DNA of 64,000 nucleotides from Maylandia zebra. Lineage: Eukaryota > Chordata > Actinopteri > Cichliformes > Cichlidae. Positions within the stretch are counted from its first letter, which is position 1; every line of letters begins with the position of its first letter. The notes under the pieces were generated by a model. The model was not told the origin of the DNA. It searched no databases and saw only the letters and a list, made by a program, of their open reading frames with translations. A program made the position numbers and the translations under genes. Location: assembly GCF_041146795.1 (NCBI RefSeq), contig NC_135167.1, positions 6,420,454 through 6,484,453 of the forward strand, read 5' to 3'. This document shows positions 1,516 to 55,310 of the stretch, piece after piece.

Positions 1516-2724
1516 ATGAAGATGGGTCAATGATGCATATAAATATGATAGTAATGTTATGTCATGACCTTCACAGGTCATGTTTTTGGTACGAAGTCAC
1601 AAGAACTTATAATATGGGTATATAGCAAAAACAGCCAGGTCAACAAGTTTGCTGCCCTGTCTGTTATTACTTTACAAGGCCTTGTTTTTGCTTTACAAAA
1701 CTTTGACCTGTCCCTGGTTATACAGTTGCTCTTTAACAATCAAAAGTACTGATGTGTCAACACTGCACGTGCATTGGCACAGCAACATTTAGAAAGTGTC
1801 AGCGTCATCCCCCTGAACACTGGTCTCTGGACAGTGAAAAAACAAAAATCCCACCGTATTCAAAAAAGCACAACTAAATCAAATCAAATCAAATCACTAC
1901 TAAAACATGTAAAGTCTGTCATGAATTCAAAAACACCCAAAAAGTTCAAATTATTAAAATGATTTTCTTCCTAGTTTTTTTTACCAGGGTTTGCCATCCC
2001 ACTGTCTGCACGATATCTGAGCTCAACCTCTTTCAACTCAGGGGTATCTTGGGATGATAAATCCTCCTCTTCCCCTCCCTCCTCATTCTGAGTCTGACAA
2101 GCAAGAATATCAGGAACACAGCATTACAGCACAGCCCGTACAAACGTATAACCACAAATGGAATGATTTGTACCTTGTTTTACAACTGATCATTAAGTTT
2201 ATTGTTTTTGACATAATAAAACAATAAAGAACAGGTGAGGTGGTTTGCAGGAACATAATAATAAGAATCAAAGATAAAAATAGAAGAGGTACAAGATGCA
2301 TGCTTTTAATTTAGGGTATACTTACTTTGGACTGTTCCATCTGGTAATTGGTGATGAGCTGAGCATAGCGTCCGCTGGCGTTCATCAAGGTTTGGTGGTT
2401 TCCGGCCTCCCTGATCTCCCCGTCATCCAGAACCAGGATGTCATCACAGAACTCCAAATACTAGCAAGCATAAGTGAGAACAACTGTGGCAACAAAATCT
2501 ACAGACCTGTTCAAAACTATAATCACATGTACGTACATATTTATGTCATTTGACAGATGTTCTTATCTCCAGTAGCGTGACTTACGAAATGGCTTAGAAC
2601 TCACGGGTAAGAGCACCAGTCAAATACTCTTCCTCAGATTAGTGACTTATGATTAGTAGGTAAACTATTAGCCAAGAATGCCTTCTAGGTTTTTTCAGAT
2701 TTGACTGAATTGGTCCAAAATGTC

Positions 2725-3748
2725 CATCCATCCATCTTCATCCGCTTTATCCGGGGCCGGGTCGCGGGGGCAGCAGCCTAAGCAAAGAGGCCCAGACCTC
2801 CCTCTCCCCAGCCACCTCCTCCAGCTTATCCGGGGGAATACCAAGGCGTTCCCAGGCCAGCCGAGAGATATAATCTCTCCAGCGTGTCCTGGGTCTGCCC
2901 CGGGGCCTCCTCCCGGTGGGACATGCCTGGAACACCTCACCCAGGAGGCGCCCAGGGGGCATCCTTGTCAGATGCCCGAACCACCTCAGCTGGCTCCTTT
3001 CGATGTGGAGCAGCAGCTGCTCTACTCTGAGCCCCTCCCGGATGGCCGAACTTCTCACCCTATCTCTAAGGGAGAGGCCAGCCACCCTTCGGAGGAAGCT
3101 CATTTCTGCCGCTTGTATCCGCGATCTCATTCTTTCGGTCACTACCCACAGCTCGTGGCCATAGGTGAGGGTAGGGACGTAGATTGACCGGTAAATTGAG
3201 AGCTTCGCTTTTACACTCAGCTCCCTCTTCACCACGACGGACCGGTGCAGCGTCCGCATTACTGCAGCTGCAGCCCCAATCCGTCTGTCGATCTCCGGCC
3301 CCTCCTTGAATCGCTACCTTATCGTGGTGGAGGGGTTTGTGTGTCCCAGGGATCCCAGGGGCTATGTTGTCTGGGGGCTTTTGCCCCCTGGTAGGGTCTC
3401 CCATGGCAAATTGGCCCTGGGTGAGGGACCAGACAAAGAGCGATTCTGAAGACCCTTATGAAAAGGACAGCGAGGGAACAGTTTACCCTGCCCGGGATAG
3501 GGTTACCGGGGCCCCGCCCTGGAGCCAGGCCCGGGGAGGGTGCCCGAGGGCGAGCGTCTGGTGGCCGGGCCTTAGTCCATGGGGCCCGGCCGGGCACAGC
3601 CCGAAGAGGAGACATGGGCCCATCCTCCCGCAGGCCCACCACCCGCAGGAGGCGCCATAGGGGTCGGGTGCATTGTGTGCTGGGTGGCGGCCAGGAGCGG
3701 AGGCCCTGGCGGACTGACCCCCGGCTGCCAAGACTGGCAATAGGGACA
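2725..3748 (-). mobile_element. 5'-truncated Rex3-type (RTE clade) LINE
   Basis: A GC-rich insertion flanked by the 14-base target duplication tggtccaaaatgtc at 2711-2724 and 3749-3762. The minus strand encodes the C-terminal part of a reverse transcriptase polyprotein at 2747-3259, with phrases RSQLRWFGHLTRMPPGRL and RPRGRPRTRWRDYISRLAW typical of Rex3. The tail is the short GATG-type repeat of that family. The upstream half (3260-3748) is out of frame or truncated. Plus-strand open frames here are shadows. Confidence 0.85.
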
Positions 3749-4070
3749 TGGTCCAAAATGTCATATTTAAAAATACAATTTTAGACAATATGCATATTAA
3801 TTTCATGAATATGTATATTCATATTCATGAAATCTGATTTCCAGATTTCAGAGTCTCAGACCAAGCTATGATCCATCAAGTAACCTGGTTAATTTTTCAC
3901 TTTGGTTTTTATACAGATTAACAAAATGGAATATAGTGATTTTTATAAAACATTAACGGATGTTTTTCTATTCTTCCTGTCATGGTAAGACATGGCCTCT
4001 GACTGTAAAATTACAATATATATGGTCAGGAAAGTCTTCTTTTAACTGCTTACATCAGTTGTTCTTGTCA

Positions 4071-5649: not shown

Positions 5650-29184
<23,535 letters not shown>

Positions 29185-37918: not shown

Positions 37919-39244
37919 ACGGTGGCCCCTAGAGACAAAGCATGTATAAACTCCAAAACACTTACAAATTCCAAATAGCACGCACAAACTCCTCAACACA
38001 TACAAAATCCAAGACACATGCAAACTCCAAAACACATGCAAAATCCAAAACACGTACAAAATCCAAGACACGTACAAGCTCCAAAACACATACAAAATCC
38101 AAAACACGTACAAAATACAAAACACGTGCAAAATCCAAAACACGTGCAAAATACAAAACACGTGCAAACTCCAAAACACGTGCAAACTCCAAAACACGTA
38201 CAAAATTCAAAACACGTACAAAATTCAAAACACATGCAAAATCCAAAACACATGCAAAATCCAAAACACGTACAAAATCCAAAACACGTGCAAAATTCAA
38301 AACACGTACAAAATTCAAAACACGTGCAAACTCCAAAACACATGCAAAATCCAAAACACGTACAAAATTCAAAACACATGCAAACTCCAAAACACATACA
38401 AAATCCAAAACACGTGCAAAATCCAAAACACGTGCAAAATCCAAAACACGTGCAAAATACAAAACACGTGCAAACTCCAAAACACATACAAAATCCAAAA
38501 CACGTACAAAATCCAAAACACGTGCAAAATCCAAAACACGTACAAAATCCAAAACACATACAAAATCCAAAACACGTACAAAATCCAAAACACATGCAAA
38601 ATCCAAAACACATGCAAAATCCAAAACACGTACAAAATCCAAAACACGTGCAAAATTCAAAACACGTACAAAATTCAAAACACGTGCAAACTCCAAAACA
38701 CATGCAAAATCCAAAACACGTACAAAATTCAAAACACATGCAAACTCCAAAACACATACAAAATCCAAAACACGTGCAAAATCCAAAACACATGCAAAAT
38801 CCAAAACACATGCAAACTCCAAAACACATACAAAATCCAAAACACGTGCAAAATCCAAAACACGTGCAAAATCCAAAACACATACAAAATCCAAAACACG
38901 TGCAAAATCCAAAACACGTACAAAATTCAAAACACGTGCAAACTCCAAAACACGTACAAAATTCAAAACACGTGCAAACTCCAAAACACGTACAAAATTC
39001 AAAACACGTACAAAATTCAAAACACATGCAAACTCCAAAACACATACAAAATCCAAAACACATGCAAAATCCAAAACACATGCAAAATCCAAAACACATG
39101 CAAAATACAAAACACGTACAAAATCCAAAACACGTACAAAATCCAAAACACGTGCAAAATCCAAAACACGTACAAAATTCAAAACACATGCAAACTCCAA
39201 ATCACAACGGAAGTGCTCCAGGACGCTAGGGGCAGTGTTGAGCT
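37919..39244 (+). mobile_element. Minisatellite-bearing DNA element, plus orientation
   Basis: Starts ACGGTGGCCCCTAGAGAC and ends GGACGCTAGGGGCAGTG...AGCT. The two ends are imperfect inverted repeats around a CCCCTAG core. The interior, about 37945-39200, is a tandem array of an 18-base unit of the form CAAAATCCAAAACACGTA, about 70 copies. Variants are mainly TCC/TTC/TAC and CACGTG/CACGTA/CACATG/CACATA. Long frames on both strands are by-products of a stop-free 18-base unit, so no protein is called. An inverted relative lies at 42022-42999. Confidence 0.82.
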
Positions 39245-42021: not shown

Positions 42022-42999
42022 AGCTCAACACTGCCCCTAGCGTCCTGGAGCACTTCCGTTGTGTTTTGGATTTTGCATGTGTTTTGGAGTTTGCGCGTGT
42101 TTTGGGGTTTGCACGTGTTTTGGATTTTGCACGTGTTTTGTATTTTGCACGTGTTTTGTATTTTGCATGTGTTTTGGATTTTGCATGTGTTTTGGATTTT
42201 GCATGTGTTTTGGAGTTTGCGCGTGTTTTGGAGTTTGCACGTGTTTTGTATTTTGCACGTGTTTTGTATTTTGTACGTGTTTTGTATTTTGCATGTGTTT
42301 TGTATTTTGCACGTGTTTTGTATTTTGCATGTGTTTTGTATTTTGCATGTGTTTTGGAGTTTGCACGTGTTTTGTATTTTGTACGTGTTTTGGATTTTGC
42401 ACGCGTTTTGGATTTTGTACGTGTTTTGGATTTTGCACGCGTTTTGTATTTTGTACGTGTTTTGTATTTTGTACGTGTTTTGTATTTTGCATGTGTTTTG
42501 TATTTTGTAAGTGTTTTGGAGTTTGCACGTGTTTTGTATTTTGCACGTGTTTTGTATATTGTACGTGTTTTGTATTTTGTACGTGTTTTGTATTTTGCAT
42601 GTGTTTTGTATTTTGTACGTGTTTTGGAGTTTGCATATGTTTTGGATTTTGTACGTGTTTTGGAGTTTGCACGTGTTTTGGATTTTGTAAGTGCTTTGGA
42701 GTTTGCATGTGTTTTGTATTTTGTACGTGTTTTGTCTTTTGCATGTGTTTTTTATTTTGTAAGTGTTTTGGAGTTTGCACGTGTTTTGGATTTTGTAAGT
42801 GCTTTGGAGTTTGCACGTGTTTTGTATTTTTTACGTGTTTTGGATTTTGCATGTGTTTTGTATTTTGTACGTGTTTTGTCTTTTGCATGTGTTTTTTATT
42901 TTGTGTTTTGGAGCTTGCATGTGTTTTGGATTTTGCACGTGTTTTGGATTTTGTAAGTGTTTTGGAGTTTGTACGTGCTTTGTCTCTAGGGGCCACCGT
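42022..42999 (-). mobile_element. Minisatellite-bearing DNA element, minus orientation
   Basis: Inverted relative of 37919-39244. It begins AGCTCAACACTGCCCCTAG and ends CTCTAGGGGCCACCGT. The interior at about 42058-42975 is the reverse complement of the same 18-base unit (GTGTTTTGGATTTTGCAC type), about 50 copies, with more TAT and GAG variants than the other copy. Frames within it are not called as genes. Confidence 0.82.
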
Positions 43000-43507
43000 A
43001 CTGAATCGCTAATTCTACCTCCTCCCCCGGCCCGCACGAGCTGCGGCAGCAGAACTTGTGGTGACAAACATATCAGTAAGTTTTGCACATTTTGCTGCGT
43101 TCACTCGAAGGCTTTCCCCCCTTTTTTTCTCGGAATTTTCTGCACCCCCATTGCGTTTTATTTTTTTGTTGTTGTTTTTTTTTTTAATTTGTCCATTTGT
43201 CCAAATGCCACTCCTCTCCAACTCCGGCCAGCTCAAATTGATGGACGATCTGATTTCCTCGTGTCAGCATTGTTCCCACATCATCATAATTAATGTTGTT
43301 CCAGGTTCAACATTGCAAGTGACCAATCACCTTCTTGTGACGTCATTCCTTTGCGACTTCGAAATACCCGCCTTCGAGTATTTCGAAATACAAGTGAAGA
43401 AGCGAAAAACCGCCGCCTGTCCGCCGAATTTGAAGTCAATTCGCCTGTCCGCCGAATTTGAAGTCAATTTAGGATACTTTCCTTTAATAAACGGTAAGCA
43501 TTATACA
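43000..43507 (+). promoter_or_regulatory. Promoter-like region and possible 5' UTR exon upstream of the MULE
   Basis: GC-rich sequence with a CCAAT motif at 43323-43327 and a perfect CRE (TGACGTCA) at 43338-43345, followed by a 28-base direct repeat. A donor-like ACGGTAAG at 43491-43498 could splice to the acceptor just before the transposase ATG (44081). This is inference from motifs only. If true, the first exon of the transposase lies outside the inverted repeat seen at 43508. Confidence 0.35.
43414..43469. repeat. 28-base tandem duplication
   Basis: Two exact adjacent copies of a 28-base unit beginning cgcctgtccgccg. Confidence 0.95.
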
Positions 43508-43893
43508 TATGTTCCTCACTTGGCTTGCTGTTTGTTTGCTAGTGATAGGCTACTTGACAACAGCATTAGCTAACCAGTGTTCTCTAGACCAGCGTTCCCC
43601 AACTTTTTGGGTTGGGTCAGGCAAAATTGCAGTAGCTTCCCTGATCATTTTACAAACATAAGTGAAGAGAATCTGGACTAAAAGGCCTAGACTTATGGTT
43701 GTGTGCTGAATCTATGAATCAAACTATCACCTGGAAACATAATTAACTGGTCCATAGCTGTGAAACTGGACATGAGTTCTTGATTCTATGGAGATTAACA
43801 GTAATCCAGAAATTTACAAATTTGTCCCAGGGACATCGCGTAGATGTTGTCCCTGGGACATCGCGTAGATGTTGTCCCTGGGACATCATGTTA
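43508..43893 (+). repeat. MULE left terminal inverted repeat
   Basis: Inverse of the right end. Its inner part (43821-43892) has three copies of a TGTCCC-A/T-GGGACA palindrome spaced by about 25 bases (tcgcgtagatgttgtccc). Confidence 0.85.
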
Positions 43894-44083
43894 AAGTTGC
43901 CAGAGACATACCATATGAAAGTTTAGCTTCTTTTAGCCCCTGTTTGTTTTATATTATTTTATATATATATATTTTTTTAATATTATATTTAATATTTACA
44001 TTGTATTGCAAAAACCCCCAAAACAAGTTAAAATGAATTAATGAATATTAACTAATTAAACCTTCGTTATTTTTCCACCAGAA

Positions 44084-47000
44084 ATGGACGACATAATTAG
44101 AAGAAGTGTTCTGAATGATGAAAAAAAAAGAACTGGAAAAGACACACAACTTTGTGTGCATGTGTCACAATGCCAGGAGGACCCATTCATTGTTGTGTTA
44201 GAAAAATTGAACTCATTAACCCTTCATGGACATTATAAATGTTTAAATGTTGCCTCAGGTAAAGACAGGAAAAGAGATTATTACAAATTCAACTGCATCA
44301 GAGCTGGGGAAAAAAGTCGAAACAGCTACAGAGCAGTGGGCTGTAAGGCCTATGTTTCATTTAAAGTACTCAAATGTTGGAAAGACCACACAGTCATCGT
44401 GCAGCGTACATATGATAAGCATGATGGGCATGATCCTTCGGACCCAAAAGACGCACATTTCAACAATATTTCCAGTGATTTGAGGAGGAAGATTGAGGAA
44501 CTGCTTTCCCTTGGAACTAAGCCAGCCATCATACTAACCGAATGTCATAAATGGGCCAAAGAACATGGACACAGAGATCTTCACAACAGAGAGCATTTTG
44601 TCACACCACGTGACATTGACAGTGTTAGAACCTGCATGATGAGGAAGAAGCACTTTAACTGTGGAGACAGTCAATGTGTACATACCTTACTTAATGGAAA
44701 ACATCAAGAACATGTTCTCTTCTATCAACCATACACATCTGACCAAGAACTAAGGATTGTTTTGCAGACACCTGTAATGAAATCAAACATGGAGAACTAT
44801 GCAAAACAGTTAGTATTTGTTGACACCACGCACTGCGTTAACCAGTATTCCTTTCCCTTATTCACACTTGTTGTAAGAGATGATCATGGGCATGGAGTCC
44901 CTGTGGCCTATGCTATTGTCAGCAACGAAAGTCAGAAAACCCTGGAAACTGTTCTTGGAATAGTTTGTGAGCATTTCCCAACTTCCCCGAGGTAAATAAT
45001 ACATTGACAGCTATTAATTTTGAAATAATTCCTTTTCAAAAAAGTTATAACATGCCAGAATCTAATGCTATAGCTGCAGCATGGGCTGCAAAAAACTTTC
45101 CTTTCCAGTTGTTAAAGTTATTCCTATAGGCTGTATGCAGTATTTTATATATCTACTTGTGAGTTGAAATGTTTAATTTGGCATTGAAGTGGTGCTTTGA
45201 GATAGCAAAAACATTTTCATACTGTTTAATCTCATTTAGTGTTTTCTTTTTTTCTGTAGAGCATTTATGGTTGACAAAGACTTTGCGGAAATAAATGCTT
45301 TGCAGAAGGTTTTTCCAGAGTCAGCTATCCTTCTATGCTGGTACCATGTCTTGCAGGTAAACCACATTGTTTTCTTTTCACGTTGTCTAAGATGCACCTG
45401 AAACACATTTTTACAACAGGGTCCTGTTGTTATGATTTGCCTCATTGTGATATTCACCTACTCAGGTTAATGAATATAAAGGGATAAAATGTTGAGTGAC
45501 TATGTCCATCCATTTAAGACCACAGTGCACTCATCTTCTGGTGGCTGCTTCCCAAAGCTCTTTTTGACATTTAAAAATATGTTTGCCTGGTTGATTTCTG
45601 TAATGCACAGGTCCTCTTGTCCAGTGAGTGACAAAGTTATTTTTGGACGTCAGCTTTCTTTTATGCTTTTTGTACAGCTGCTCCTCTGTCTCTCTCTCCA
45701 GATTAACTTTTTTTCTCTTACATTCACAGGCTGTTAATCGATGGCTTTCAAAATCAGAGTCCGGGGTCCATGGGCTTTCTAACACCCAAAAGAGAAATGA
45801 AATCATTTCTTTCTTTTGTAAGCTGAAAGCTTGCACATCTGTAAGTGTAATTTGTCTATTTCACATTTTGATTTCTTGATTACACTAAGAGCATAATAAC
45901 TTTCAGTTGCTAAAAAAAGTTACAGAGAGATACAAAATAGATTTTTGAAACAATTTCTAAAACTGGCTTCTTATCTTGCTTATCAAAACAAGTACTTAAG
46001 CTGTGCAGAACATCATTGTGTCACCCACTGTGCAGTAGAACTTGTGAGTGGGATTCTTTCACAGACAGATGCTGAAACCAAATATGCTTATAGGTTTAGT
46101 GTTCCTTCTTAGCCATTGTAAGGGAAGAAATAATTGCTTCTTAATACAAAAACACGACATATTATTAATAACTTAAAATTCTTAATGTTATTCAATAAAA
46201 GGAAAAGGGCTTCAATACATAATATTAAAGATTTCAATAGGTCTGTTAAATGGATTGAAATATATTCTGTTGCATCCAATTCTCTTAGGAGGACGACTTT
46301 AAAGCCACATCAGCAGAGTTCTGCCAGACATTTAAGCAATACCCTTTGGTGTGCCAGTATTTTCAGAAGCACTGGGAAGGCATTGGCCACATGTGGTGTG
46401 ACTACGGCCGTCGCTTCAGTCACGCTCGTTCTGAAACAAACAATGTGATTGAAAGGTATGATTTATTATTTTGACCTCATTCAATTGTATTGCTGAAAAA
46501 AAGATATTATGCTTTAATCCAAGAGGCTAAACTGAGTAGGTTCGTCATGTCATTGCCAGAACAGGTTTTAGGCAAATCCTTTAAATTCTAGCAGCGTTTT
46601 TAATGTTATCACAACAAAAAACAGAGTAGGTGGATTTGCCTAAATCAGCTAAACCGGCACAGAGCATTCCTTTATAAAAGACGTGTGCAATAGGTATTCC
46701 AATTTTTTAAAAAATAATACAGTCTTGATTAAAACTTTAAATTCCTTCAATTACAGTTACTAATCATTTCAAATAACTGTTTTTCAGATTTTTCCACCGC
46801 CTGAAATACCAGTTTTTATCTGGCTACAAGAATAGGCGTCTGGATGATCTGATTGAAGTGCTCCTAGGGAAGGCCGACGACTACTTCTCAGTCATAAAAA
46901 CCCTGCAAGATGTGGGCCGCATGAAAAACAGGTTTGCTGACACCTTGTCTCAAGTTTCAGACTCTGCTTCAAGACTGATGGAAAGTGGTTGGGCTCTTAA

Positions 47001-47825
47001 AATTACAGTCAAGAACAGCCATGGAGTTAATGCATATCAAGTCCCATCTGAGTCAAGAGAAGACATGGTGTATGATGTCTGCCCTGTTGAGTCCTACTGC
47101 AACTGTACATATGGCTTACGAGGACTTCTTTGCAAGCATCTAGTGTTACTTGCAAAATTAGCAGAGGCTGACAATGACATCTATCCAAACATGGAAACAG
47201 ATCTTGGCAAGAATTGCAGTGAAAGAAAGGCATTACTTTGTACACTGTGAGGACTTGAAAGTGATAAAAATGCCAAGTTTGTTTGGAAATCTGTGTTTTT
47301 TTGCATCGGCTGAAACACTTCAGTGCACTTGTTGTACGTTCTCTCACTATAACACATGTGCTTGCCTGAAGGTGGCTTGTAGCCATTTTAAACAAATGAA
47401 AAACTCTCTGAAAAGTCCTCTATCAACTTTGAATGACACTCCTGTAGTTGAAAGCACAGACAAAAAATGCACAGAAGATGCAGTTGGAAAACTAAATGCT
47501 GTTTTAGACACAGTTAAACAGTGGGCATTCATTCCAGAGGGTATTACTGCAATGATAGATGAACTGCATACAAATGTCTTAAAAACAAAACAAGTAGGCA
47601 AAAGTATATGCCAGTACGAAATAAAGATGACAGATAATGCACGCAAAATTAGGCCATTGTATTCTAGCAAGAAATGTTCGGCCAGCATCGACATTCCAAC
47701 AGTCTGAAAATGAATGTGAACAGTCGATAACCACTGAAAGAGAGACATCCTCTGGAGAAAATGAAAACCTTTTGGAATACAAAACAAAAAAGAGAAGAGT
47801 TAAAGCTAAGTATATGCACAAGTAG
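44084..47825 (+). pseudogene. MULE transposase gene, frameshifted near the 3' end
   Basis: Exons: 44084-44991, 45260-45356, 45730-45840, 46289-46455 and 46788 onward, all in phase. Exon 1 carries an N-terminal zinc-binding DNA-recognition region (about residues 68-115: FNCIRAG, GCKAYVSFK, YDKHDGHDP) and the first catalytic Asp (FVDTTHCVNQYSFPLF). Exon 2 has VDKDFAEI and CWYHVLQ, and exon 4 the Glu (ARSETNNVIER). Exon 5 encodes a SWIM zinc finger (YCNCTYGLRGLLCKHL). The frame then shifts by about 47200. A second Cys-rich block (LQCTCCTFSHYNTCACLK) follows to about 47660, where it shifts again to a basic tail (KTKKRRVKAK). An intron was tested but did not restore phase. A polyA signal lies at 48069-48074. 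Confidence 0.82.
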
Positions 47826-48068
47826 ACTTTTGTGTGACATTTCAAAGGGACTGCATCCATTACTTCTGTTTATTGAAACCTAAAGCTGAATAGCTGTCTT
47901 AACTTTCTGCCAAGGAACAGATGAAAAGAAATTGTTTGGTCTCTCAAGCAGTTGTTATTTATGTGTGTTATTCATTACTTTGGCTTGGTTGCTGTTTTTG
48001 ATACAAATTCATCTGTGCCCATTGTAATATTTTCATATGTTACTATTTTTATATTGCTATGCATTATA

Positions 48069-48074
48069 AATAAA
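48069..48074 (+). terminator. Polyadenylation signal of the MULE transposase
   Basis: AATAAA about 245 bases after the last coding frame on the plus strand. Confidence 0.55.
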
Positions 48075-48844
48075 GGATTACTTATTACTATTAAAGGTCT
48101 GCATTTGTAATTGTTGGTATTATTTATAAAATATGCGCTCTTAAGTTTTTTGCTCCATAAAACGATACCTGTCACTTTTTGGACATAGAGTATCAGCTGT
48201 TGAGAATCCTGGCTCATACAAAATAGAAGTAAAAGGTTTCAACATCCAGCCTTTTTATGATTAAATACAAAGTGTAATAACAGAGTTATTGGGGTGTGAT
48301 TTTGTTAATAGTTAGTCTTAAGTATAAGTTTAATAGTAATGAGTAAGAAAATATAGCCAGAATAATGGAATGAGACTAACACCTGACCTCACACTGAGAT
48401 GAAGTGGCATGTTTGTGCTAATGCTGACATTGGGGCTCAGAGTTCCTCTGTGTGTATATATTTGTGAACGTTAACTTGGCTAATGTCCAAGGGTTTGACT
48501 GCTTTCCTGTTGGATTGTATCACAAAGAACAGGGATAAGAGCACCAGTGGCCGTGCACACCCTCATCTCTCTCCTTCACCCGATCATTAGTGTTGGAAAC
48601 CGGCATTAGCTCAGAGTAGATTAGACTTCAGTATAGTGCAAGTGATTTGATTTTATGATTATTTGATTCAGTTTTTTCTGTGTTCAAGCTCAATTACTTT
48701 AATAAAATATGTTGAGTTCAAACAAATAAATAAACAAATAAACTGTGGACATTACCCTTTTAAACCTTTCTGAAACAAGACAGGTAAAAACCAGTGTATA
48801 AAAGTTTACATAGGTATAAATAGCTCTAACACTTTACTCCAGCC

Positions 48845-49132
48845 TGGCGTCCACACATGTGGACATCACATTTTGGGTTATTTAGACCAAAATACTAAAT
48901 CTTGATCAACAAGTGCCTGATATACAGTTATGAGGACATTATACTGCAACTGTTCCATCAAAATTTCAAATTAATGTCCTCATATGTGGCTCTCATTTTT
49001 CTCAGAAACAAAAATTAGGTAAAAAAAACAAAACCTGGTAATTCTTTTTTTACATTCATCGGGTTCCAATCGGCCCAAATATCAAAGAGAAATTAAAAAT
49101 GCATGCCATGGAAGATTTCGGGTCTTAGGGGG
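48845..49132. mobile_element. piggyBac-like MITE, second copy
   Basis: Inverted relative of the outer element at 17071-18635. It shares 'ctggcgtccacacatgtgg', 'gacatcacattttgggttat' and 'atatcaaagagaaattaaaa' and ends at a TTAA (49133-49136) after gggtcttaggggg. The left TTAA is not conserved. It lies between the two convergent MULE genes. Confidence 0.65.
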
Positions 49133-49136
49133 TTAA

Positions 49137-49668
49137 AATGACCAGACCCCTCCGGCCTGTTTTCCAGGCCACTAAATTAAACCCAGTCAATTACCAATTG
49201 AACAGAATAAAAACCTACGAGGTCCACTAATAGTCCAAAAGTCCAAATCTTTAATAGAAAAGACAGGCAGAACTCAAACAAACAATAATCCAAACGAGGA
49301 GCATATATACACACTGGAAAGTAAATAATTATAAGTTATTAAATCAGACTAATTAAATACAGTAAAACTAATAAGGGAAGACAAACACACGGGAAATAAA
49401 AATAACAGTGTAAACATACCAAAACTCAAAATAAAACAGGAAAGCTACTACAAACCGAGTGTGACACAATTACATTCATATTGAAACATATGTGATAATT
49501 TTCTTTCTTTGTAGCATTTTTAAGATATGTGTTAGAACAGTCATTATGCTGTTTGGATTAGGAACCAATCATTTTTGCCAAATAGTTAACACAAACTTAG
49601 AACAACAATGAACAATTTTCAAGATTCTGATTTACAGAACAAACAAAAGTCACAAAAGGTTTCATTAT
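49137..49668. other. Region between the two MULE genes
   Basis: AT-rich, with no frame of note. It should include the 3' UTR of the minus-strand protease gene, but I did not find a convincing polyA signal. Confidence 0.35.
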
Positions 49669-52600
49669 TTAAGAGACAAGATCAAGTTTTTCACACAGGA
49701 ATGAAATGACAGAATCCAGTGCAGCGGGGCCAAAGGTGTGTGTCAGCAAACTGAAGGTTGAGGAATCAGTCAGCTCATGTTTAAGATTGTGTTGGATTTT
49801 GAGAAGAGTCTGTCTGTTATTAGAAAGTAAGATTAACAATGTTACACCAATAACCCAAATACGGGGAAATGACAAATAATACCAAAAAAGATACAACTTT
49901 CATATTGTTTTACTAACTTACTTTGTCATATCAGCACTTGAATGGTCGATGCCTTTACAGACCATGTCTGTTGTGACATCGCAGGCCAATCTTCCGGCAA
50001 ACCCGAGGGCTAGCTCCCCAGCCTCCTCTTCACTCAGAACACTAAACACTGTTACTTTAGTTTTGGCCTTCTTAGGCCTGTCAAGAATCATTGCGGGCAG
50101 TTTGGCTTTACGGCCCTAAAAAAGAAAAAGTGCAAACACCAAAAGAGCAGAGAGAGACACACACACGCGCACAAAGTTAAATGCTTTTGTTTACATGGTG
50201 TAATTGTGTATATGTTGCAGCAAATGCACAATTTCCAGCCACATTGTCACTTCATTGATACGAGTAACCCGGATTTATTTCAGGTGACATCAAAATCACG
50301 AAATGTATACCTACCCCAATCAAACCTCTGAAAACATGAACTGACATGTTCTCTGCGTTGATTCTGCGCTTGATCTCGTCTTCTGTTATTGTGTAGGTTT
50401 TCTTTTTTGAGCTTGGTACAGATAAGCGACCATGCACTCTGTAAACTGTACTAGTTCCTTCTGAATCAGTTTGGAATTCTGTATCTGCATCGATCCTGTC
50501 AACATCATCAGCAGCAGCATTATCTGTACTCAGACTTGTGCCGTATACTTCTGCTTCTTTTTCGTTGTCTTCAGTCTGTGTACCTTCATCTCTTTCAGTC
50601 TGTGTACCTTCATCTCTTTCAGTCTGTGTACCTTCATCTCTGACTGTCAGTCTTCCTATCTCACTGTTACTTGTCGATTTGCTGCAGATGTTCTCTCCCT
50701 TAGGAACTTTTCCTTTGTCATTCGCTGCCTGATGCTTTCCCTGATGACATTCTTCACTGGCTACTTCTATTGCTCCTCCTGTATAGCCACCTACTATGCT
50801 GCACAACTCCTTTCCCTCTGCTGTGCTGCACTGTGCTGTTACATAAAGAAGAATGATATAAACAGCACTATATCAATTTAATTGTGAAGAGAAATCCCCA
50901 CAATACGACACAGTTATGTCTAAAATAGTTTTGTGTAAAAACTGGATCTTGAAACGTCCACTTTAATTACACAGTCCTGGTGTGCAAAGGCAAAATTACG
51001 AAAAAAAATTTCACTTTAAACATTTTTGGACATTGTTTAGTTATATTGTGACTTACTCTCACAGAAGATACAGATGCCACAAACAGACTTTGAACAACGC
51101 ATGTGCTTGTATGCACCACATTTCTGGCACTGCACCTGTGAATTAAAAAAAAAAAAAAGAAGAAGAAGAAATAAACAAACAAAAAACAAATGAACAAAGT
51201 CCATTAAATAAACAATCTATATGGCTAAGGACATGTCATAGTGTACCCGGTCTTTGGCTGCAATCACACACCAGCACTGACTGCACTTCCTAGTTCGATC
51301 TGCAAAATATAATTTGTTTAAGTACAAGTTACATTTTCCAATGTTAGAGAAAAAGAAGGCAGCTAATTTTATCTTTACCTATTGAGGAAAATAAGTAGTG
51401 GCAAAGTCGGGATCTGAGCTTTGTGATTTCAGTGTTGTACTCCTCCACTTGTGTTTTACCGTCAATGAGAGATTGGGCAAACTAATAATTGATGAAGAAG
51501 AAAAAAAAAAAAAAAAGAACAAAAAGAATTAGATTAACAAAGAAATGTTTGTTTTAACCCCCCCCCCCCCGAGAAAAAAAAAAAAAACAGAGCAACCAAA
51601 GCAAAGCATTACTGCTGAAATGGTTCAATCTACAAAAAAAATTGAGATTTTACCATCCTGCCTCTAAGGCTTTAAAAACTGAATAGGCAAAAATGTAAAC
51701 ATTACTTATATAGGTTAAAGCTATAGTTTTCAGTACCATTATGACATGCACTCCACATGAGTTCCCATCCTGTTGATGTGGGTGGCTCACATGTGACAAG
51801 GTCCACTCTCCAGCGCAGCCTCTTGCTGAAGCAAATGAGCTGAGAGATCGCAGTTATTACAAATAAAAAGCATATAGAGAAATCAATAACCACGTTCGGT
51901 AATGATTTCAATTAAATTAAATATGTTATGTTAAATATGTTAATTAATTACCTCCAGTTTTTCAACACCGCACTTTTTCTGACCTCCGACTCGCCAAATG
52001 AATTCATATAGACTATGGTCCTCTTGGGTATGTCACAAAACTGTTTTGTAAAAAGATGGATATGGTAGGCTTGGGCCTTGAGAATTCCTAATGAGGGACA
52101 CTGAAAAGTATCATGCACTAGAGAGAGTGCAAAATCTGTGCAACTTACAAACAAGGTCCAGTGGCTGCCGTTTTCCAGACAGGCTCCAATCAATTTCTCA
52201 TACATCTGAAAGATGTTTTTCTGGAAATAAAAATAATGTGACAAGTATGTTTTTCTGTCAAGAATGACACTGCAAAACTGCAAAAGCTTGTCAGGTGAGA
52301 CTTGTAATTAATTCTGCAGATACACAAACATATAGAAAGTGTCATTTTTGGTTTACATTAATTAATTTCTATAGTGTGTACAAAACAAATCAAGACCACA
52401 GACTCAACACGCACCACTCAATTTTTGGTGTTCTTTATCAGTTGGCCAAGACAGAAATGTTTTAATCTGTGTGCATTGCTTTTGAACAAGTCTTTACACA
52501 GAAAAGGTTTCAGAAAGGTATTTTTCAGGTTCTTCTGACAAGGCTTCAATTTTGGAAAATGCTGTTTGTTTATAGTGGCAACTTATAAACCCTTTGTGAT

Positions 52601-53393
52601 AAGAACATAGTTACCACAGTCCAAGTCATACCTTCAAAAAGTATGCACTTTGTGCTCTTGTGGACCCATCCAAAATTTTTCCAGTGATTTGGCTTGGTAT
52701 TGGATAAATGTGAGGGAAATTCTATAAAAATAACATAAATACACCTATGTTTTCAAATACATTACAAAAAACGTAAACATGCTATGTCATTATGATCAAA
52801 CAAGCTTTTCAACATACCTCACACTGCAAATAGATTAGGCCATCTATTACCTTATAAAACAAATAAATAAATACATATAAATAAAAACAGAACTAAGGAA
52901 TACGATTCATTAAGTAAATTGTACAATAAAGTGTATTTAAAGCAGAATTTAACATTAGTTTTATGACAACATAAAAGGATTTTTATGTCAAGAGGTACCT
53001 CATCTGAAATGTTAGTCTGGTCAAACAGGGATTTCAAACTTGAAATACCAATAGAGTTTGGTCCAGCTACTCCCACAAGGTAATCTGTGAGAAAGCATAT
53101 GCTGTAGTCAACAGATATCATTTTCTTTTTGCATGCTGCAACCATCATCCATTTCAGTCTTCTAGGAGCTTTGTCTGGTTGTAGTTCTTTTTTCTCCTCC
53201 TCATCTATTAATTAAATTGTTTTCTGACCTTCCTAACTGTTTCCGACCTGTCTTCCCAATGTGATGTTTAAGCAATATATGTATGGTCAGAAGGGGGTGA
53301 AATTTTCATTGCAGTTGTACGTGTAACATTGCATGTGATAATAAAAGGCTTGATTGGTTGATTATTCAACATGAGTTGACATTTACCTGACAT
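49669..53393 (-). CDS. MULE-borne ULP1/C48-type cysteine protease with PHD-like zinc finger
   Basis: Thirteen coding exons: 53387-53393, 52999-53204, 52818-52850, 52632-52721, 52149-52220, 51952-52040, 51737-51821, 51379-51481, 51247-51299, 51057-51135, 50315-50835, 49922-50115 and 49669-49813. Together they make 1677 bases, 558 residues, with every phase consistent. Residues 75-225 are a ULP1-like (SUMO-protease superfamily) domain. It has the catalytic His in SHWTLF (about 132), Asn where Asp is usual (YMNSFGE, about 149), and Gln and Cys in HQQDGNSCGV (about 182 and 188). Residues 229-272 are a Cys-rich PHD-like finger (CSQCWC, VQCQKCGAYKHMRC, CGICIFC). An acidic linker with three tandem TQT motifs and a helical C-terminus follow. 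The start exon encodes only Met-Ser and is preceded by an acceptor, so a 5' UTR exon lies upstream. The substrate is unknown; desumoylation or processing of the transposase are guesses. Confidence 0.82.
50569..50643 (-). repeat. In-frame 24-base tandem repeat, three copies
   Basis: Encodes RDEGTQTE three times within exon 11 of the ULP1-like gene. The copies are nearly exact. Confidence 0.92.
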
Positions 53394-53511
53394 TGTGAAG
53401 GAGTCACAGTTTCTGTAAGGGTGTAAGAACATAACATGTGGATTTGTTACACTTCTTTTTCACAAGTTAATAACAATCAATAATTTTCATTCCATTATTT
53501 ACAAGCTATCA

Positions 53512-54036
53512 CACGATGTCCCAGGGACAACATTTACACGATGTCCCAGGGACAACATTTACACGATGTCCCAGGGACAACATCTACACGATGTCCCAGG
53601 GCAAATTCTACATGATGTCCCAGGGACAACATTTACACAATGTCCCAGGGACAACATTTACGCGATGTCCCTGGGACAACATTTACGCGATGTACCTGGG
53701 ACAAATTTGTAAATTTCTGGATTACTGTTAATCTCCATAGAATCAAGAACTCATGTCCAGTTTCACAGCTATGGACCAGTTAATTATGTTTCCAGGTGAT
53801 AGTTTGATTCATAGATTCAGCACACAACCATAAGTCTAGGCCTTTTAGTCCAGATTCTCTTCACTTATGTTTGTAAAATGATCAGGGAAGCTACTGCAAT
53901 TTTGCCTGACCCAACCCCCGGGCCACGAAACACCCAAAAAGTTGGGGAACGCTGGTCTAGAGAACACTGGTTAGCTAATGCTGTCGTCAAGTAGCCTATC
54001 GCTAGCAAACAAACAGCAAGCCAAGTGAGGAACATA
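53512..54036 (-). repeat. MULE right terminal inverted repeat with palindromic array
   Basis: 53512-53706 is a tandem array of eight units of about 25 bases, each holding the 13-base palindrome TGTCCC-A/T-GGGACA. One unit is degenerate and one is a base short. From about 53700 to 54036 the sequence mirrors the left end. Subterminal repeats of this kind usually bind transposase, but here that is inference. Confidence 0.85.
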
Positions 54037-55310
54037 GTGATGGGACGTTCTGTATCGAGGCTTCGGAGCGTGTGTCGAGTAATGGAGGGGGCGTTTCCGC
54101 GAAGCGCGTATCGAGGCTTGCTTCATTTATGGGAGGAGCTGAAAATGATGACGTCCGAAGCCTCGCTGCCCGGCTGTACCACGTGACTGGTTCATGAAGT
54201 GGTTCGAACTTTGCCGCGAGATATGACAGCGATATAAACCCCTCAGACTTCATTCAAAAATGTGGGTGTTTGATGGAGAGTTGCGGTTAGTGAGAGTTTG
54301 GAGACCGTTTGGAGGTTTATGAGAGTGAGGAAAGTCAGGAGAGAATGGAGCCAGCTAAGAAGAGGAGGATGTCCTCCCCTGTGTGGGAACATTTTGATCT
54401 TATTCCTCCCAACAAGGTATGTAAATTTCTACAGAAGATGTATTTTCATGATACTGATGGTGCAATACAATTTATGTTGAGCTGTCTTGACTTTTGTACA
54501 AGGTGAAGTGTTTTCTATGTGCCAGGGAGCTGGGATATAACAACAACAACACCTTACCCATGCTTAGGCACTACAGAGCTTTGCATGAGAATAAGGGGGA
54601 CACCGATTGTGGAGCAAGACCAGGTGAGCCATCAAATGCAATGATAATATAGGATGCAGTAATGTTACTAAATGATATAACAATATTATACAACTGTTAT
54701 AAGTTACGTATGTGATATTTATATTTGTGCTTTATCTTTATTGTCTTTCCTCAGGAGAACAATCTCAAATAGATGAAGACCTGGTCAGCATGGTGATTGA
54801 GGACTCCCAGCCATTTAGCATTGTGGAGGACAAAGGATTCAAAAGATTTGTTAAATCATTAAATCCTAGCTATGTTCTCCCCACTAAAAAGGTCATAAAA
54901 GCAGTGAAAATTTAGTTTTTACAGAATAAAATGTGAACAGGCAGTGTGTAGCTGTCCATACCTCAACGTTACAAAAGCACAACCACTGTCCACACCCCAA
55001 CCACACCTCACCTCACAGTAAATGATCATTTCCATTTCAAGCATTTCCAAATAATCATTTCCCATACTGCCACTATAAATATACACAGTATACTGCCATC
55101 ACTACAATATACATGTTTTACACACTCCTTTTGTTGTTGACATTTACAGGCTGTGTGCAAAATGCCACACTCTTCAAATTCATGCCAGCTATTATTTTTA
55201 CGTCCTGCTAGAGCAAATGAAGCTTCATGAAGCTTCGCGTTGGGGTGAACCAATTGGATGAAAAGCTTCAGTGCTTCATGGGGCTTCATGAAGTTCTCTT
55301 ACCGTAATAT
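54037..55310 (+). mobile_element. Truncated hAT element with BED finger
   Basis: Begins GTGATGGGACGTTCTGTATCG, a common teleost hAT terminus, right at the MULE end. It contains a 5' part of a transposase gene. The right limit near 55310 is set by repeated GAAGCTTCATGAAG-type sequence typical of these elements. No matching target duplication was found. Confidence 0.6.
54345..54915 (+). pseudogene. 5' fragment of a ZBED-like hAT transposase gene
   Basis: Exons at 54345-54416, 54503-54623 and 54755 onward. They encode a BED finger (VWEHFDLIPPNK, KCFLCARELGY, TLPMLRHYRALHE) and the next conserved block (SQPFSIVEDKGFKRFVKSLN, PSYVLPTKK). The frame then reads into intronic sequence and stops at 54915. 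The catalytic domain is missing. Confidence 0.75.

Follow-up and report, generated by a model that had tools for sequence, protein, structure and literature searches.

A single copy of a young Mutator-like element (MULE) with two genes is contained in the 64-kb stretch of Maylandia zebra DNA analysed here (hereafter the window; Table 1). One gene encodes the transposase, and the product of the other, gene 2, joins in one protein a Ulp1/C48 protease, a zinc-binding-like Cys/His segment and a C-terminal AP-2-type domain. It is probable, at roughly 0.7, that we are dealing with a young two-gene vertebrate MULE whose gene 2 serves the element and is not a passenger; this figure refers to the identity of the element together with the service of gene 2 to it, and both the exact mechanism and the soluble-target alternative discussed below fall inside it. 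What is new is a well-supported vertebrate MULE and the protease-AP-2 fusion; Ulp1 in MULEs is already known.

Table 1. Features of the MULE copy, in positions of the window
Feature	Position	Strand	Remark
MULE copy, 10.8 kb	43243..54036	.	left terminus kept, right terminus missing; other copies with 9-10 bp target-site duplications
Left terminal inverted repeat (TIR)	43243..43899	+	43508-43899 pairs with right arm; 43243-43507 unpaired in window copy
25-bp subterminal tandem repeat, left	43818..43899	+	3 GTCCCWGGGAC palindromes
Transposase exon 1	44084..44991	+	N-terminal Cys/His motif; first catalytic D247
Transposase exon 2	45260..45356	+	second D308, CxxH
Transposase exon 3	45730..45817	+	
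Transposase exon 4	45907..46043	+	
Transposase exon 5	46289..46455	+	E465
Transposase exon 6	46788..47250	+	SWIM-like CxC...CxH; frame shortened by 8-bp deletion
Open frame continuing transposase C-terminus in deletion-free copies	47162..47707	+	second Cys/His cluster
Gene 2 exon 13, end of AP-2-like domain	49669..49813	-	
Gene 2 exon 12, middle of AP-2-like domain	49922..50115	-	
Gene 2 exon 11	50315..50835	-	linker with RDEGTQTE repeats; AP-2-like domain begins at ~50440
Gene 2 exon, Cys/His segment, second part	51057..51135	-	C4HC3-like spacing
Gene 2 exon, Cys/His zinc-finger-like segment, first part	51247..51299	-	
Gene 2 exon, protease domain end	51379..51481	-	
Gene 2 exon, Gln and catalytic Cys	51737..51839	-	HQQDGNSCGVH
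Gene 2 exon, Asn replacing usual Asp	51952..52040	-	VYMNSFG
Gene 2 exon, catalytic His	52149..52220	-	HWTLF
Gene 2 exon	52632..52721	-	
Gene 2 exon	52818..52850	-	
Gene 2 first coding exon	52999..53204	-	start region with 7-bp deletion in window copy
25-bp subterminal tandem repeat, right	53511..53708	+	8 units; 6 exact GTCCCWGGGAC and 1 with one mismatch
Right TIR	53627..54036	-	outer ~265 bp gone at junction with hAT-like sequence

A first-pass annotation, made from the sequence of the window, had described long inverted ends beginning at 43508. The complementary arms are real (105 nt at 98% and 291 nt at 97% complementarity, 43508-43899 against 53627-54036), but position 43508 lies inside the TIR, and the true left terminus, as defined from other copies, is found 265 bp further left, at 43243. 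The TIRs are several hundred bp long. Foreign sequence begins at 54037, where the outer right arm of the window copy should be, and is presumably hAT-like, judging by its terminus. When the outer TIR was used as a query against the window, the junction and weak short matches were detected and no second outer arm. Nested repeats are abundant in the region around the copy. A search with the terminus pattern gave 123 matches, as against 0 for the reversed control. Of 13 long-pair rows, 8 have target-site duplications (TSDs) of exactly 9 or 10 bp, as have 4 of 8 short elements; amongst individual copies, c3b/c3c and c5a have exact TSDs and c3a has none, and the two rows on C18 fail the TSD test, their common right end being directly adjoined by what looks like the end of another TIR. 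In the table of a 2019 Mutator survey, MULE TSDs measure 8-11 bp, usually 9-10 (PMC6446971).

The spliced transposase matches the MULE domain PF10551 (E 4e-19, 69.2 bits, cut-off 27.6) as well as PF21056, the RNaseH-like domain of ZSWIM1-3 (E 7e-22, above cut-off), which bears out the earlier assignment of a MULE transposase with a DDE core. PF21056 is the best Pfam match of the core and leads to the ZSWIM1/ZSWIM3 proteins; unlike these, the fish gene sits in a mobile, multi-copy element. The residues D, D and E, which we take to be the MULE catalytic residues, are kept in 13/13, 13/13 and 10/10 readable copies respectively; the label of the exon 1 motif is likewise our assumption. As for the SWIM finger also claimed earlier, a feature common but not universal in MULEs, its CxC...CxH pattern is there and is invariant in all 10 readable copies, but the Pfam SWIM model reaches 15.2 bits on the exon open reading frame, under its cut-off of 19.6, and is unlisted for the spliced protein. 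The 8-bp deletion in exon 6 is absent from 4 of the 8 other copies that cover the site. Membership of Zisupton/KDZ, for which we assume a KDZ-type transposase to be the criterion, was considered and rejected, as the Pfam scan of the transposase gives MULE and ZSWIM1-3 and no KDZ model at E <=5. In the viral_contigs collection, transposase exon 1 matched no relative, and a protease exon gave 7 pattern matches with 0 confirmed. The DDE domain, the 9-10 bp TSDs and the long TIRs that characterise a MULE are all present.

For gene 2, the 13-exon model of the first-pass annotation (558 aa) was obtained again, with GT-AG borders, 564 aa and no internal stop, but other copies naturally begin with an ATG located at the 'exon 2' acceptor, and the gene therefore has 12 coding exons. 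At this start the window copy carries a 7-bp deletion relative to 6/6 other copies aligned there. Three other copies were recovered with all pieces of the gene; it is broken in two of them and intact in the third, c3a, where 548 aa are read without interruption. The protein scores 30.2-32 bits against Pfam C48 (cut-off 20.7), the top solved structure for the protease is ULP1 (1euv, E 1.2e-5), and His, Gln and Cys are invariant in 12/12 readable copies, the window included, the usual catalytic Asp being Asn in 11/11. Gene 2 is thus predicted, as had been proposed, to encode a C48/Ulp1-type protease. The PHD-like finger reported alongside it does not hold up: Pfam PHD_3 (E 1.9) and C1_1 (E 0.42) give no convincing match to a segment that has C4HC3-like spacing only, and the AP-2-type C-terminus had been overlooked.

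This C-terminus was recognised with TF_AP-2 (PF03299), which scores 31.7 bits in the whole protein (cut-off 23.4; best stretch, profile positions 3-91) and 39 bits (E 1e-9) in three stretches of the last 158 residues, the best of them covering positions 3-32 and 156-191 of 197. Exons 12-13 alone reach 22.2 bits, slightly below the cut-off, and a single-sequence search against solved AP-2 structures yields a weak match (E 0.09-0.12). In a gapped alignment with the DNA-binding/dimerisation domain of a host TFAP2, 58 of 147 aligned residues are identical, and the alignment score of 126 compares with 22+-8 (maximum 67) in 1000 shuffles. Judged by these similarities, the C-terminus of gene 2 is a homologue of the AP-2 (TFAP2) DNA-binding domain, in a version that differs from TFAP2 in being diverged, with a shortened loop and a fused protease. 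Five ordinary TFAP2 loci occur elsewhere in the same genome. In exon 11, the RDEGTQTE repeats number 1-3 units, varying by copy.

MULEs that capture host gene fragments are known as Pack-MULEs, and gene 2 might in the same style be a passenger assembled from fragments of a host SUMO protease and TFAP2, with no role in transposition, a reading that we consider unlikely. The 2019 survey describes MULEs as prone to acquiring host gene fragments (PMC6446971), and one intron of the AP-2 part falls close to an intron of a host TFAP2. On examination, however, intron positions proved non-deciding at both boundaries: the first is about one codon from the host intron and in a different phase, and the second is in phase 2 at Lys-Gln in both element and host but several residues apart in the alignment. 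The AP-2 part of gene 2 shares just 58/147 residues with the compared host TFAP2, which itself matches, over 203 residues and with E 9e-118, the AP-2alpha of a solved structure; it is therefore no recent capture from this host gene. Further points against a passenger are that the AP-2 part has an uninterrupted frame in the window copy and in c3a, that the gene bearing it accompanies the transposase in 22 clusters, and that its exons show a codon-position bias in an older relative, as described below.

The first-pass annotation had suggested looking for both genes between the same ends at different loci, and this is what was found: transposase and protease are paired and convergent in 22 of 31 clusters of the same genome, counting the window and some duplicated clusters, and with contig C49 (25.6 kb), where transposase and protease exon sit at opposite ends, scored as two single clusters. 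The AP-2-bearing exon 11 is also present in 18 of the 22. The copies are young (0.4-2.3% mismatch), and amongst them gene 2 shows a synonymous excess (30/78 non-stop changes, p 0.007). Perfect 9-10 bp TSDs flank both genes, intact or broken, at 7 independent insertions, and the whole unit has therefore moved together; the TSDs and the young copies imply past movement, as far as such sequence traces tell. A chance nesting of two elements unrelated to each other, or a host gene resident between repeats, would find some support in the nested repeats common in the region, but the identical convergent layout of the 22 clusters and the TSDs at the 7 insertions refute it for the Maylandia zebra genome, leaving it a negligible probability.

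The first-pass annotation had named copies free of the protease as evidence against a two-gene element; copies without the His/Asn catalytic exon do occur. The two examined are decayed derivatives and did not lack the gene from the outset, a reading that covers C15:3.02 and C4:32.8 and leaves out the second C15 copy (3.097 Mb). At C15:3.02 the N-terminal exons and AP-2 exons 12-13 are kept, with an insert between them, whose frames we take to be retrotransposon-like, and the His/Asn exon is gone; at C4:32.8 the Cys exon of the protease is retained. An older relative still has AP-2 exon 12 together with half of exon 13, with 13/7/27 mismatches at codon positions 1/2/3 (binomial 0.0006), as against 36/51/33 in an intergenic control. 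Its transposase pieces show no third-position bias (20/16/19; C-terminal frame 11/11/6), and the protease catalytic exons are absent from it.

The first-pass annotation had supposed that the protease may act on SUMO-modified host factors or on the transposase; with an AP-2-type domain in the protein, a DNA-targeted protease becomes likelier than a free one. We tentatively propose that this domain would tether the protease to DNA, most plausibly at the GTCCCWGGGAC arrays just inside the ends of the element, and that the tethered protease would there strip a SUMO or ubiquitin-like tag from host silencing proteins, repair proteins or the transposase, whereby the element could stay expressed or able to transpose. 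All 10 occurrences of CCCWGGG in the element fall within the subterminal arrays (mean 0.37, maximum 2, in 100 shuffles), with 11 more in the rest of the window. The AP-2 consensus site is GCCN3-5GGC (PMC9877354), and a scan of the element with the 3-nt spacer found 0 sites of the form GCCN3GGC, so that it is a guess that the AP-2-like domain recognises the palindrome. Reasons other than AP-2-like binding may also account for the arrays. Five short elements of 402-431 bp have the termini and lack the palindrome, and no exact copy of it occurs in the stretches taken from two older relatives. The 25-nt repeat unit forms at best a weak hairpin (z -2.1).

It is also conceivable, at less than even odds, that gene 2 aids transposition through soluble targets such as the transposase or repair factors, the AP-2-like domain being a dimerisation or nuclear-localisation module or a binder of host promoters. 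Ulp1-bearing Mutators are on record from plants, hydra and lancelet, and Bao et al. suggest that their proteases may serve to activate repair factors when transposition takes place (PMC2836005); the lack of GCCN3GGC in the element points the same way. Against this stand the match to the AP-2 profile, which extends to its N-terminal as well as its C-terminal part, and the constraint in the older relative on exon 12, the middle of the domain.

The first-pass annotation had given plants as the known hosts and no vertebrate counterpart; hydra and lancelet are reported animal cases, and no vertebrate is named in the available text (PMC2836005). Like the fish MULE, these plant, hydra and lancelet Mutator/MuDR elements encode Ulp1 (pfam02902), but the fish protease has a convergent gene of its own and is fused to an AP-2-type domain, which goes unmentioned in the portion available (PMC2836005). 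The legend of a figure in the same paper refers to aligned Ulp1 and PHD domains from Ginger1 and Mutator proteins (PMC2836005). Ginger1 elements likewise move by cut-and-paste and carry Ulp1, in one case (Ginger1-9_HM) along with PHD; they differ in their Gypsy-integrase-like transposase, to which the protease is fused, with no AP-2 named (PMC2836005). Within open-licence PMC titles and abstract starts, among the matches listed, no vertebrate MULE with Ulp1 and no AP-2 domain in a transposon appeared; subscription papers and Repbase reports fall outside this scope.

VANDAL elements are MULEs, and the role proposed for gene 2 might perhaps be analogous in logic to that of the plant VANC anti-silencing proteins. 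Arabidopsis VANDAL21, like the fish MULE, is an element with an accessory protein, and the target motifs of its VANC are, as in the fish MULE, short, arrayed and often tandemly repeated in the element's noncoding regions, with units gained and lost between VANDAL21 copies (PMC5735166). VANC differs in carrying DUF1985/DUF287, the available text being without 'ulp', and its binding and demethylation are experimentally demonstrated (PMC5735166), whereas the activities of fish gene 2 are predictions from sequence.

The 2019 survey raised the question whether vertebrates truly lack MULEs and judged vertebrate Repbase entries probably misidentified (PMC6446971); for one vertebrate genome the present family, with its MULE domain, long TIRs and perfect 9-10 bp TSDs at many sites, answers that question clearly. 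Here a transposon unites a ubiquitin-like protease with a DNA-binding domain of the transcription-factor kind, and the question arises whether AP-2 domains passed between host genes and transposons, and which way. The long-standing question of the role of transposon Ulp1 genes becomes testable in an animal, where ordinary binding and transposition assays are feasible because the copies are young and the candidate binding sites are short repeats. A bolder and rather doubtful version of the DNA-targeted mechanism is a self-addressed deSUMOylase, in which the AP-2-type domain would have co-evolved with the palindrome arrays at the element's own ends and would bring Ulp1 to them, where it would remove SUMO from host silencing complexes. 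If true, it would be a case of a mobile element carrying an AP-2-type domain, and a vertebrate counterpart, built from unrelated parts, of the VANC anti-silencing of plant MULEs.

The transposase and the protease gene of the MULE (Mutator-like element) recur together across the genome. Searches with the MULE core, the exon carrying the protease His and Asn, the AP-2-bearing exon 11 of the accessory gene and transposase exon 1 were merged (24 of 24, 29 of 31, 25 of 36 and 27 of 39 rows entered, respectively, those omitted being second fragments of places already counted) and gave at least 31 clusters, a lower bound from the best candidates scored. Transposase and protease occur together, as a convergent pair in every case, in at least 22 of these, at least 18 of which include exon 11 as well; the others comprise at least four with transposase only, at least one with transposase and exon 11, at least two with protease and exon 11, and at least one each with protease only and with exon 11 only. 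The clusters are partly non-independent, with duplicates at contigs C3, C12 and perhaps C15; C49 was entered twice, each time as a single cluster, since 25 kb separates its two ends on this short contig, and C11, C12:31.05 (contig:Mb) and C18 each mix more than one element or gene copy. The first-pass annotation had read the element as carrying its own protease gene, which is borne out both by this recurrence and by seven insertions that carry the two genes, whether intact or broken, and are flanked by a perfect target-site duplication (TSD), namely C4, C12, C14:34.36, C22:6.90, C22:42.18, C3 (copies c3b/c3c) and C5. The element is a mobile unit with two genes. A full-length C15 copy (TSD 9/9) has a broken protease, in which an insert with retrotransposon-like frames separates the retained N-terminal exons from a remnant of exons 12-13.

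Comparison with other copies places the terminus, which starts GGACGATCTG, at window position 43243; the inverted ends earlier placed at 43508..54036 do contain inverted repeats, but only the inner portion of longer terminal inverted repeats (TIRs). In the window copy the outer arm of the right TIR is absent and gives way to different sequence, which we take to be a hAT-like terminus directly adjoining the truncated TIR; sequence resembling this stretch is found within the right arm of the C5 copy. Across the 962-Mb genome (63 contigs), in which the window corresponds to C1:6420454-6484453, the 23-nt terminus gave 63 forward and 60 reverse matches with at most two mismatches, the reversed control giving 0. 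Flanks of 13 long-pair rows (C18 forming two, with two left ends and one right end) and eight short elements were compared at TSD lengths of 8, 9 and 10. An exact 9- or 10-bp TSD was present in 8 of 13 long rows and 4 of 8 short elements and a near-exact one (7-8 of 9 positions) in three long and two short rows, while two long rows (both C18) and two short rows had none at these lengths. Additionally, exact 9-bp TSDs flank c3b/c3c and c5a and none was found at the flanks of c3a, the remaining copies having one terminus or none within the stretch taken. Since c3b and c3c have their flanks in common, they were regarded as one duplicated locus, and two C12 copies with a common TSD were counted as a single event.

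Elements that have these termini but measure only 151-667 bp presumably derive from the MULE as non-autonomous forms. Five elements of 402-431 bp (L065-L069; C7, C9, C10, C15 and C16) have variant termini (GGATGATCTGAT... at one end) and probably form a MITE-like family mobilised by the transposase of this MULE or a related one. On C21 an exact 10-bp TSD flanks a 10.7-kb element that contains two inverted protease exons but nothing matching the transposase, a rearranged form that is probably non-autonomous. The minisatellite arrays adjoining the MULE resemble an inverted pair in the older relative L070, and therefore they are probably arms of another repeat family. Three long reading frames that recur at a fixed offset suggest a duplication of ~10.9 kb in the left part of the window.

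Coordinates of the element and of other features (window positions unless a locus is named)
Feature	Position	Strand	Remarks
MULE, window copy	43243..54036		
Accessory gene	49669..53204	-	
In-frame 24-bp minisatellite (RDEGTQTE)	50570-50641		within accessory gene; 1 or 2 units fewer in other copies
hAT-like sequence	from 54037		
Large 18-bp minisatellite arrays	37948-39205; 42061-42982		opposite orientation, ~2.9 kb apart
Similar inverted pair	L070:3421-4782		
Three long reading frames	2705-3780; 13592-14667		identical translations, offset 10,887 bp
ABCC-type exons	8904-9669	-	best match of 9157-9669 is ABCC5
10.7-kb element	G000:C21:5337592-5348269		

The transposase gene was modelled in the window as six exons with GT-AG borders encoding 619 aa, with the Pfam domains MULE and ZSWIM1-3 RNaseH-like over cut-off. 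D247, D308 and E465, which we take to be the catalytic residues, are invariant in 13/13, 13/13 and 10/10 readable copies, counting the window; the CxC...CxH residues likewise do not vary in 10/10. An 8-bp deletion, absent from four of eight other copies spanning the site, truncates the C-terminus in the window copy. Amongst the seven other copies with all six exons recovered, four (c3c, c4a, c5a, c6a) are without an internal stop and three (c3a, c3b, c6b) contain one.

The accessory gene had been described as a 13-exon protease gene. Thirteen pieces can indeed be spliced in the window (564 aa), but the other copies indicate that the reading frame opens at the ATG of the second piece, leaving 12 exons; among the three other copies that yielded every piece, this frame is open over 548 aa in c3a and disrupted by small indels in c3c and c6a. 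Peptidase_C48 and TF_AP-2 both score over their Pfam cut-offs, and the C48-like assignment is upheld further by the alignment of this part with yeast ULP1. The protease motifs are HW, Asn where Asp is usual, Q and SCG, with His, Gln and Cys invariant in 12/12 readable copies and Asn in 11/11. Eight Cys/His residues after the protease domain, each conserved in 11 or all 12 of the copies, had been taken for a PHD-like finger; the likeness is confined to C4HC3-like spacing, and PHD models gave no significant match to the protein.

The TF_AP-2 model matches the last 158 residues with 39 bits (E 1e-9), and exons 12-13 alone with 22.2 bits, slightly below the 23.4 cut-off. Global alignment of the AP-2-like part with a host TFAP2 gave 58 identities over 147 aligned residues, with a score well beyond those of 1000 shuffles, and a single-sequence search of solved structures gave weak matches to AP-2 (E 0.088 and 0.12), the sole two hits up to E 1. 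The host genome has five TFAP2 loci, one of which matches AP-2alpha of a solved structure over 203 residues (E 9e-118); together with the ABCC5-like exon region, these make the host look vertebrate.

Over aligned pieces no shorter than 500 bp, mismatches to the window amount to 0.43-2.27% in 12 additional copies and a fragment. In these young copies 30 of 78 non-stop changes in the accessory gene are synonymous against 25% expected (p 0.007; 3 stop changes excluded), and 21 of 62 in the transposase (p 0.075; 1 excluded). At 33.49 Mb on C21, an older relative (71-76% nucleotide identity across its five matches over 200 bp) retains transposase pieces and, convergent to them, all of exon 12 with half of exon 13. 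In these two exons the mismatch counts by codon position (1/2/3) are 13/7/27 (p 0.0006), as compared to 36/51/33 in intergenic DNA, and 49 codons of exon 12 gave dN 0.11 and dS 0.69; no such bias was found in the transposase pieces of this relative (20/16/19 in exons 1 and 6, 11/11/6 in the C-terminal frame). A third fragment, L070 (83-84% identical), also retains the end of exon 11. Since exons 12-13 were kept with a third-position bias, the AP-2 domain already belonged to the element, and was apparently constrained, long before its recent burst, a conclusion limited to this domain because the older copy lost the catalytic exons of the protease.

Mutators with Ulp1 domains are on record from Arabidopsis, maize, rice and melon as well as from hydra and lancelet (PMC2836005); one legend in that paper refers to an alignment of the Ulp1 and PHD domains found in Ginger1 and in Mutator proteins. 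As regards vertebrates, the existence of true MULEs was doubted in 2019 (PMC6446971). Among the matches listed from the open-licence PMC literature, none described a vertebrate MULE that carries Ulp1 or a transposon that contains an AP-2 domain.

Directly inside both element ends lie 25-bp tandem repeats carrying the palindrome GTCCCWGGGAC. All ten CCCWGGG sites of the element fall in these arrays (100 shuffles: mean 0.37, maximum 2), with 11 more in the window outside it; the exact palindrome occurs nine times in the element and 0 times in the rest of the window. Stretches around other copies, not all reaching both ends, contain from 0 (c4b) to 49 (c11, with more than one element) exact palindromes; none was found within the stretches taken from the older relatives L070 and L072, and only the 667-bp one of eight short elements scanned has it. 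GCCN3GGC is absent from the element. In view of this patchy occurrence and the absence of GCCN3GGC, the array is a candidate target and no more.

MULE transposases cut and paste, Ulp1-type proteases strip SUMO or related tags, and AP-2 domains dimerise and bind palindromes. A protease-AP-2 fusion would bring the protease to DNA, for which the most economical target would be the element's own repeat arrays. Among experimentally studied systems, the nearest in logic is that of Arabidopsis VANDAL elements, whose protein VANC binds arrays of short motifs within the element encoding it and relieves silencing (PMC5735166). The accessory protein would share this logic but not the parts, which are unrelated, and hence it may be said to work like VANC rather than to be one.
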